Shown in pieces: positions 13,987 through 17,329 of a stretch of 64,000 bases of DNA. Made by a program: the position numbers and the translations under genes. The stretch's first letter is position 1, and every line of letters starts with the position of its first letter. The notes under the pieces were generated by a model. That model was given only the letters and a program-made list of their open reading frames with translations, did not search any database and was not told the DNA's origin. Location of the stretch: assembly GCF_013391085.1 (NCBI RefSeq), contig NZ_CP058334.1:124001-188000 (forward strand), written 5' to 3'. The DNA is from Natronomonas halophila. GTDB lineage: Archaea; Halobacteriota; Halobacteria; Halobacteriales; Haloarculaceae.

Positions 13987-15012
13987 TTAGTCTTCGGCCT
14001 CGGCGGCCTCGGCTTCTTCCTCGTCGCCACCGCCGCCTTCCTCGGTTCGGGAGGCCACCAGCGCGCCACGGGCGACGCTGTAGAGCGGTTCGTCGGCCTT
14101 CCGGACGTCGCTGATGGAGAAGGGGATGTTGGCCTTCTCGAGGCGTTCCTCGAAGAGTTTCTCGAAGCCGGGCGGGCTCGCGGTACCGCCGGTGACGACG
14201 ACGGGTACGTCGAGGCCCTCCTCGACGTCTTCCTCGTTGACCTCCTGGGCGACGTTCTCGATGACGTAATCGAGCAGGTTGTCGTAATAAATGGACAGCG
14301 CGCCCTCGACACCGCCGGCGTCGGTCGTGAAGTCCAGTCGGAAGTCGTCCTCCTTGATGGAGGTGACCTTGTCGATTTTCTCGCCGGTCGCGGTGGCGGT
14401 CTGTTCGTCGACCCAGTCGCCGCCGCGGGCCACGGAGAAGGTCATCACGGGGACCGCGTAGTAGGACAGACAGACGTTGGTCATCCCGGCGCCGAAGGAA
14501 ATGCCCAGTCCCGTGAAGTTCGAGTCGGCCAACTCGGAGTAGATGACGGCCATGCCCTCGTTGATGGGTTCGGGGTCATAGCCCATATCGGCGAGGAACG
14601 ATTCGAGGGTCTTCTGGTGGTACAGCGTCGAGAGGTCCGAGTCGATGGGGTCGGCGGGCGTCGAGAAGTGAATCCGCTCGTTGGGGCGGTCGGGTTCGCC
14701 GACCACCTGCTCGATGATGAGCTTGATCATCGGGATGGCCGACTGCTCCTCCGAAGAGAGGATACCGTGTTTCATCGGCCGGCGGGTTTCCTCGTTGAAG
14801 ATGTTCGCGAAGTTCAGCGCGTCGTCGCCGACCACGTACACCTTGTCGTCCTTACGGATGTGGAGGACGTCCGACCGGGAGAGCATCCGCTCGGCCATGT
14901 CGCTGTATTCGATCTCGACAAAGGAGTTCCGCTGTGATACGAAGACGGTCTCGTTTCCTTCCTGCTGTGCCGAGACGATGTTCATCGTCCCGACGTCAAT
15001 GCCGCGTGCCAT
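13987..15012 (-). CDS. Salactin-like haloarchaeal actin homologue
   Basis: A 341-residue member of the actin/MreB/ParM ATPase superfamily closest in features to salactin, a dynamically unstable filament protein described in Halobacterium. The phosphate-1 loop is [12 protein letters not shown] at residues 4-15, a second phosphate loop is [13 protein letters not shown] near 165, and an adenosine-type [11 protein letters not shown] lies near 290. The C-terminus is a disordered acidic tail ([16 protein letters not shown]). A TTTATTAG box about 28 bp upstream suggests its own promoter. The membrane-protein gene immediately upstream on the same strand (95 bp away) is a possible partner. Confidence 0.85.
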
Positions 15013-15106
15013 GGAGGAAGGGGCGGTGGGTCGCTAATAAAGATACCTGCCAGTTCATACCATGCGTCTCGGGCACGGTTGTCGAAAATAGGGAGGAAAA
15101 GAACCG

Positions 15107-15985
15107 TTAGCCGCCGAGACGCTGCTTCAGACGTTCCCAGACGCCGTCGGGTTCGGCCTCGGCCTCCTTGCGCTGCTGCTCGCGGAGTTCCTGCAAGGCC
15201 GCCGCCTGGTCGTCGACGCTGTCACTCGTGTCGGTGCGGTTCTCGCCGCCTTTCAGGCCCTGTAGTGCGGAGAGTTGCTCGTCGACGCTTTTCGAGCGGT
15301 GGACGTTCGCCGAAGACTGGTCGAGGTTTTCGCCGTCCAGTTCGGCGTCGGGGGTGATGTTCAGCCGCTCGGTTTCGACCTTCTCGACGCCGCCCCAGTT
15401 GATTTCGGTGTTCGACATGGCCTCGTCGATGTCCTGCTGGACCTGCTCGTCGGTGACGTCGGGACCGGCGTCGGTTTCGGCCTCCTCGGCAGCGGTTCCG
15501 GGGCCGCCGCTGACTCGCTCGATGTGGTAACTGACGAGGGCGGCGCCCGTCGAGGCGAGGACGCTCACGACGCCGACCGCATAGATGGTGACGCCGCGGA
15601 GGCTGTAGTCGGCGCCGGCGTTCCAGTTGCTCGGATAGACGGAGACGAAGAAGGCGATAGCGGCGATGGTGACCACGAGGCCGACAGCGGCCACGTACAG
15701 CGCTCGGCGGTCGGCGGGCAACAGTACGACGACCGAAAACAGCACCAGCGGCAGGCCGAAGGCCCCGCCCGCGAAAGCGATTTCGCGGAGCCAGAACACC
15801 TCGCCCGCAAGGGCGGTTCGCTCGATGCCGAAAAGCAGCAATCCGATCAAGCCGAGGCCAAGGCCGCCGAAGAAGAGCGCGAAGCCGAGGTAAACGTCCG
15901 TACGCCGGTCCGGTTCCCCGATGTAGTTCCGATAGAGTGCGACGAGTCGGTCCTCGCCCGACCCGTCCGTGTCGGCGGTCGTCAT
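15107..15985 (-). CDS. Four-helix membrane protein with cytoplasmic tail (DUF7139-like), upstream of salactin
   Basis: A 292-residue protein with four membrane helices (about residues 31-53, 66-90, 96-117 and 131-154) and a 135-residue acidic tail. The tail carries two copies of a short motif, SVDEQLSALQGL at 233-244 and SVDDQAAALQEL at 256-267, and ends in an amphipathic helix (VWERLKQRL). The ATG at 15985 is chosen over a GTG at 15991 because GAGGGTG (15989-15995) forms a Shine-Dalgarno-like site. I believe this corresponds to the haloarchaeal DUF7139 type, but the label is tentative. Function unknown; a salactin anchor is an inference. Confidence 0.75.
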   Translation of the reverse strand: MTTADTDGSGEDRLVALYRNYIGEPDRRTDVYLGFALFFGGLGLGLIGLLLFGIERTALAGEVFWLREIAFAGGAFGLPLVLFSVVVLLPADRRALYVAAVGLVVTIAAIAFFVSVYPSNWNAGADYSLRGVTIYAVGVVSVLASTGAALVSYHIERVSGGPGTAAEEAETDAGPDVTDEQVQQDIDEAMSNTEINWGGVEKVETERLNITPDAELDGENLDQSSANVHRSKSVDEQLSALQGLKGGENRTDTSDSVDDQAAALQELREQQRKEAEAEPDGVWERLKQRLGG

Positions 15986-16009: not shown

Positions 16010-17329
16010 CTATGACTGTTTGGCCTCGAGCGACGCCGTGAGGTCGGCCCCACGGTCGACCGCTCGGGTCGTCCACTCGGCGACGCCCGCATAGAACAGA
16101 TGGGCCCGTGCGACGGCACGGGTGTCACCGTCGCTCGACGAGGTACGGTCGGCCGTCTCCAGCAGCATCTCGCTGCGCTCGGCGAGATGTCGCTGAAGCG
16201 GCGTTCCGGAGGCCGCCGCTTCGATACCGTCGACGGCGTCCTCCTTGGCATCGATGACCGATTCGGCCGGTATCTCACCGTTCTCGAATCGGTCGACGGT
16301 TCGTGTGACCGCCGCATCGAAGGCGTTGAATTCCGTCAGATACGTGGCGATGTCGACGAGCAGTCGCACCGATGGCTCGCCGTCGTTGTCGTCGAGTTCG
16401 GAGAGCCAGCGTCGGCTTCGTCGGCCGACCTGAATCCGGATGTCCCGAACCCGGCCTTTCGGCGAGGCATCGTTCGGCGGGTCACGGTCGGCGTACGACT
16501 CCGCGATAGCTACGACTTCCTCACGGAGGTCCGCGAGGGCGGGCGGAATCGCGGTACGGAGCGACGGCGCCTCCGCGTCGGTCGCCGAGTCGTGCAGGGT
16601 GGCGATAGTCGACCGAGCCAGTCGGGTGCGTTCGACGCTCTGCCGAACCAACGCGAACGCCGTGTGTTCGTCCATACCGCCGTTGTCGGCGTCCGCCAGT
16701 TGCTCCCGTGCGTGGTCGAGATACCGAAACTCCGTCAGCCGGCGTTCCGCCTCGTAGAACATCGGCAGGTGGTCCCCGATGGGGCGTGCGATGCGGTAGG
16801 AAAACCGTTCGGTGAGCGCGTCGAGGGCGGCCTGCTCGTCTTCTATCATCGCTTCGATGGCCGCTCGGTCGACGGCGCCGGTCTTGGCCTCGATGTAGCC
16901 GAGCGCGAGGGCCACGTCACGGACCGTCGACTCGATTTGTCGTAGCGCGGCCTCGCCCCGGTCGGTCTCGCGGGCCGACTGGAGTCTCGCGTTCGCGTCC
17001 TCGACGATGTCGTTCGGGTCGTTCGGTATCGCCCGTCGCAGGCCGGTCAACTCGACATCGGGATTGGCTTCGGCCGCTGCGCGAAGGTCCGAAACGAGCG
17101 ATTCCGCGTGTTCCAGTGCGTGGTCGAGTCGCTCATCGGAGACCGGCACGGCCGGCGGGAGGTCCGGCCACTCGATTTCGGCGGCTTCACGAAGGATTTC
17201 CGAACTGCTTCGGGGCACGTCCACCGGCGTGACCGTCGGGTAGTCGTCGCTCGTCGTCTCGTTGCAACCGGCGAGGGCGGCGAGCGTTCCCGCGGCACCG
17301 AGGAGGACGCGGCGGCGAGTGGAGGGCAT
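16010..17329 (-). CDS. Tat-exported all-helical lipoprotein, unknown function
   Basis: A 439-residue protein with a Tat signal (STRRRVLLGAAG) and lipobox LAGC, with the lipidated Cys near residue 22. The remainder is predicted almost wholly alpha-helical, with repeating amphipathic stretches and no recognisable enzyme motif. It should be anchored on the outer membrane face. It lies 24 bp upstream of the four-helix membrane protein on the same strand, so co-transcription with the salactin region is possible. I do not recognise the family. Confidence 0.75.
   Translation of the reverse strand: MPSTRRRVLLGAAGTLAALAGCNETTSDDYPTVTPVDVPRSSSEILREAAEIEWPDLPPAVPVSDERLDHALEHAESLVSDLRAAAEANPDVELTGLRRAIPNDPNDIVEDANARLQSARETDRGEAALRQIESTVRDVALALGYIEAKTGAVDRAAIEAMIEDEQAALDALTERFSYRIARPIGDHLPMFYEAERRLTEFRYLDHAREQLADADNGGMDEHTAFALVRQSVERTRLARSTIATLHDSATDAEAPSLRTAIPPALADLREEVVAIAESYADRDPPNDASPKGRVRDIRIQVGRRSRRWLSELDDNDGEPSVRLLVDIATYLTEFNAFDAAVTRTVDRFENGEIPAESVIDAKEDAVDGIEAAASGTPLQRHLAERSEMLLETADRTSSSDGDTRAVARAHLFYAGVAEWTTRAVDRGADLTASLEAKQS

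Follow-up and report, generated by a model that had tools for sequence, protein, structure and literature searches.

In a 64,000-nucleotide stretch of the Natronomonas halophila genome (the window), the gene for the actin homologue volactin is preceded by that of a DUF7139 membrane protein, which we propose, with a probability of roughly 60%, to be the obligate partner of volactin in the membrane, recruiting or anchoring the actin by means of several short tail motifs. The two genes form a pair, the tail is a specific feature of genomes with volactin and its motifs are conserved, and tail and volactin co-occur even where their genes are not linked.

Volactin and its DUF7139 neighbour

The actin homologue is encoded on the minus strand at 13987–15012 and is 341 residues long, with a short acidic C-terminal tail. 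Residues 1–320 match the Pfam Volactin family (PF25216) over positions 1–320 of the 321 in its profile, i.e., over its full length, with 457.9 bits against a cut-off of 35. The initial annotation had named this protein salactin, an identity ruled out by scores below both salactin cut-offs (24.6 bits against 27.1 for Pfam PF25229, 32.2 bits against 400 for NCBIfam NF053533) and by a profile search of the genome, which found no salactin elsewhere in it. Salactin of Halobacterium salinarum is likewise a haloarchaeal actin with dynamic filaments, of a separate family; it grows from the cell poles, helps in DNA partitioning and is reported to have poorly conserved gene neighbours (PMC10746226). Because the window actin is volactin, salactin's polar anchoring and DNA-partitioning role is not transferable to it. 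Volactins are about 80–90% identical to each other. The closest known counterpart of the window protein, which matches the Pfam family end-to-end, is VolA (HVO_2015) of Haloferax volcanii, the only volactin known to form dynamic filaments in vivo (PMC10869688). A sequence search of the PDB with volactin gave no matches. From its sequence, volactin lacks an N-terminal amphipathic membrane helix of the MreB type; its MARGIDVG start corresponds to the first strand, without an extension.

Upstream of volactin, on the same strand and across a gap of 94 nucleotides, lies the gene for a 292-residue DUF7139 protein (15107–15985, with its ATG at 15985). Residues 13–157 match PF23600 with 146.5 bits (cut-off 30), and an AlphaFold2 model calculated from 55 sequences places transmembrane helices at residues 28–58, 64–88, 93–116 and 128–158; the membrane domain as a whole spans residues 13–158 (15512–15949). 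These predictions agree with the four-helix protein that had been annotated just upstream of the actin. The even number of helices and a slightly basic loop 2 suggest that the C-terminal tail is on the cytoplasmic side. No Pfam family matched the last 135 residues. A fold search of the PDB with the model returned nothing at E ≤ 0.001; the best matches, such as LTC4 synthase (E 0.25), were to other membrane proteins with four helices and are taken as generic, and a PDB sequence search gave chance matches only (E 0.3).

In 97 of the 116 volactin loci from the haloarchaeal genomes sampled, volactin is directly preceded by a DUF7139 gene of the same orientation, bearing out the suggestion that the two are neighbours across this group. 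The 19 non-adjacent cases comprise G049, G130 and 17 genomes from Halorubrum (genus g16). Among the named loci, the genes are adjacent in 73 of 80, including seven Haloferax genomes, and two of the remaining seven lie at contig edges; the Haloferax species covered, all other than H. volcanii, carry the same gene pair as the window. Further upstream, at 16010–17329, the window encodes a 439-residue lipoprotein-like protein without a Pfam match, which we place outside the system because it is present at just one of 165 other volactin loci. A locus from an uncultured archaeon (L284:3334-7811) contains the full pair together with a second, partial volactin copy and a putative transposase-like reading frame.

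A BRE/TATA-like block is conserved in 81 loci about 37–24 nucleotides before the volactin ATG; in the window (15035–15049, minus strand) it includes TTTATTA at −29 to −23. Volactin could thus probably be transcribed alone, as a leaderless mRNA, besides read-through from the upstream gene. A promoter of its own would make sense for a filament protein required in larger amounts than its anchor.

Conserved motifs in the tail

The tail of about 130 residues is predicted by AlphaFold2 with low confidence and is mostly disordered; the only helices predicted in it coincide with conserved boxes. These boxes were defined from an alignment of 98 volactin-linked DUF7139 sequences from 97 genomes, the window being counted twice. 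The most conserved tail element, absent from the initial annotation, is box 1, with consensus DxxIxxDIDxAMxxxELSWGGVEK (residues 178–202, 15380–15454, minus strand); it contains a helix predicted at residues 179–191, and its Ala189, Trp197, Gly198 and Gly199 are invariant in all 98 sequences. Boxes 2 and 3 correspond to two copies of a shorter motif, SVDEQLSALQGL at residues 233–244 and SVDDQAAALQEL at residues 256–267, found exactly where they had been reported. Box 2 (RSSGVDxQVxGLKGLKGG, residues 230–248, 15242–15298, minus strand) is supported by the alignment and the AlphaFold2 model, while box 3 (SxSTVDDQTxKLxELREQQ, residues 254–272, 15170–15226, minus strand) overlaps a helix predicted at residues 257–277. 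Both copies are kept in the 98 aligned sequences, as the annotation's conservation check called for, with Leu241 of box 2 and Leu264 of box 3 invariant and separated by 23–25 residues in every sequence; other spacings in the tail are highly variable. The best 12-residue self-match of the tail has 8 identities out of 12, reached by none of 2000 shuffled sequences, and the repeat is thus not due to chance. Mean conservation is 3.1–3.3 bits in boxes 1–3, compared to 2.8 in the membrane domain and 1.7–2.5 in the linkers.

A short basic helix, with consensus GLLxRLRSLL, is predicted at the C-terminus (residues 281–290, 15116–15145, minus strand) from the alignment and AlphaFold2, whose model has the helix at residues 282–290. 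The final amphipathic helix described in the initial annotation is thus retained as a helix, its amphipathicity being only modest: the hydrophobic moment is 0.47 in the window protein, with a family median of 0.61 against 0.54 for shuffled sequences. The same comparison lends modest support only to a strongly membrane-binding C-terminal helix, which we did not adopt.

Other DUF7139 proteins have different tails. The same genome encodes two more of them, in which the four-helix PF23600 base is followed either by three repeats of DUF1508 or by a zinc-ribbon of the DUF7140 family (L152:4889-6151, L153:5814-6803); the zinc-ribbon type recurs in the tails of 30 additional paralogues, taken from other genomes. 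These proteins have other cytoplasmic cargo and no linkage to volactin, and DUF7139 looks like a shared modular membrane base with exchangeable cytoplasmic cargo. Among the tails compared, the boxes are confined to the volactin-linked proteins. We define here a volactin-associated DUF7139 subgroup, of which the window protein has every feature: a WGG box, two VD-Q boxes, the C-terminal helix and co-occurrence with volactin.

Co-occurrence of the tail with volactin

A profile of the tail only, built without the membrane domain, was searched in 195 genomes of the class. It matches 118 of them, including all 117 with a full volactin; the sole genome with the tail only, G188, is an assembly of 180 contigs. 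In nine genera of mixed presence, tail and volactin agree in 67 of 68 genomes, which none of 20,000 within-genus shuffles matched; these tests correct the genome counts for phylogeny in part only. Within Halorubrum, 36 of 53 genomes have both genes, 16 have neither and one, a fragmented assembly, has the tail only, with the two genes mostly on separate contigs or far apart. The idea of a functional pair thus survived the conservation test, tail and volactin being present or absent together even when unlinked. In G107, three tail copies occur alongside three volactin copies or fragments. The tail was not found outside the haloarchaea in a sample of 148 genomes of the phylum, all 14 matches being haloarchaea already sampled. 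No positive association between salactin and the tail was found in the 195 genomes (52/66/45/32).

Two further observations concern other haloarchaeal actins. Genome G184 (family f1, genus g12) has several salactin copies and fragments and lacks both DUF7139 and a full volactin. In many Natrialbaceae-type genomes, a divergent second volactin domain forms the N-terminus of reading frames mostly 900–1300 residues long (L149:3698-7387, L150:1604-5020, L151:1307-4963). In the one frame analysed in full, a long coiled coil comes after the domain, and all three frames examined have a glycine-rich transmembrane segment at the C-terminus; such frames may encode an actin fold inside a membrane-anchored coiled-coil protein.

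A proposed membrane partner for volactin and its alternatives

In published imaging, volactin filaments span the cytoplasm and contact the membrane with their tips; the existence of volactin-binding factors, as yet unknown, was suggested (PMC10869688). A membrane partner fits both points, and anchoring or nucleation is a plausible reading of this imaging. The accessible parts of the volactin papers name no membrane partner. Neither DUF7139 nor its pairing with volactin is named in the literature searched, which left out bioRxiv preprints and most subscription journals, and the neighbouring tags HVO_2014 and HVO_2016 are not mentioned there either. As a membrane protein restricted to volactin-bearing genomes and equipped with repeated short motifs, the DUF7139 protein is the simplest candidate for a volactin receptor. 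Its four helices would hold it in the membrane, while the disordered tail would reach into the cytoplasm and present the WGG box, the VDxQ and VDDQ boxes and the C-terminal basic helix. Volactin would most likely be what these motifs bind, with several of its subunits or the end of a filament as the probable target, and they would in this way recruit filaments to the membrane, nucleate them there or hold them in place; with their fixed spacing, the VDxQ and VDDQ copies could contact neighbouring subunits. We infer direct binding of volactin by the tail, and with it tip attachment or nucleation, from these properties. A joint AlphaFold2 model of tail, linker and volactin, calculated from 23 haloarchaeal loci with both genes in one frame (read through, with stops as glycine), had a mean pLDDT of 42 and speaks neither for nor against contact.

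Comparable arrangements exist in bacteria. MreB filaments are recruited by the dedicated membrane proteins RodZ, MreC and MreD. There is no sequence relation to these; the window protein has four transmembrane helices, a motif-bearing disordered tail and DUF7139 as its sole Pfam domain, whereas RodZ has an N-terminal helix-turn-helix and a single transmembrane segment. Contact with the membrane by filament tips is also a feature of volactin, unlike MreB. In the FtsZ-FtsA/ZipA and SepF systems, a membrane tether is joined to a cytomotive filament via a flexible region and a short motif; there the motif is on the tail of the filament protein, while in the window pair it is on the tail of the membrane protein.

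The main alternative is that the tail protein regulates volactin dynamics, as a disassembly or end-capping factor or as a sensor of membrane state that signals to the filament, instead of anchoring it mechanically. We consider this rather unlikely, although the same co-occurrence data would support it and sequence does not by itself separate regulation from anchoring; the conserved promoter of volactin suggests that amounts of filament and partner may differ, and regulated depolymerisation before cytokinesis has been suggested (PMC10869688). Co-occurrence indicates a shared task, not contact, and short linear motifs could bind any partner. The tail might thus bind another component of the same process, e.g., the division, S-layer or chemotaxis machinery, with volactin linked only through that process. 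This appears improbable: no third gene is as tightly linked at the volactin loci, where DUF7139 is found in 142 of 165, a zinc finger protein in 105, a methyltransferase in 81 and dph2 in 74, and a partner of a general kind should also occur where volactin is missing, not in a near one-to-one relation with it.

That unrelated genes were merely inherited as neighbours and kept or lost together has very little probability. The wider gene surroundings are also partly conserved, and in G060 (L193:1444-1884) a single in-frame deletion joins the first 40 or so residues of DUF7139 to the last 100 or so of volactin, apparently the scar of a joint loss in which one deletion removed both genes. Chance linkage alone is nevertheless not enough, because presence and absence also track each other in G049, in G130 and in Halorubrum with its mostly unlinked genes, and the volactin-linked tail is unlike all other DUF7139 tails seen. 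Least credible of all, to the point of being negligible, is the original proposal of a salactin anchor. Volactin is a distant relative of salactin, and the salactin profile gives a weak score to its C-terminal third, but that score is under the cut-off, the genome is without salactin, the tail is not associated with salactin and none of 30 salactin loci of about 4 kb contains a DUF7139 gene.

Volactin drives Haloferax cells to form disks, and it has been implicated in the tissue-like multicellularity of haloarchaea (PMC10869688, PMC7617734). Its near one-to-one partner provides a specific gene and specific residues to probe, in relatives of a genetically tractable and readily imaged model organism, and would offer a first look at the coupling between an archaeal actin and a membrane. 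More tentatively, the tail could be both receptor and nucleator for volactin tips, with the four-helix base sensing the state of the membrane. If so, membrane tension or curvature would be coupled to an archaeal actin in rod–disk and tissue-like transitions, by a membrane–actin linkage system separate from the bacterial and eukaryotic ones.
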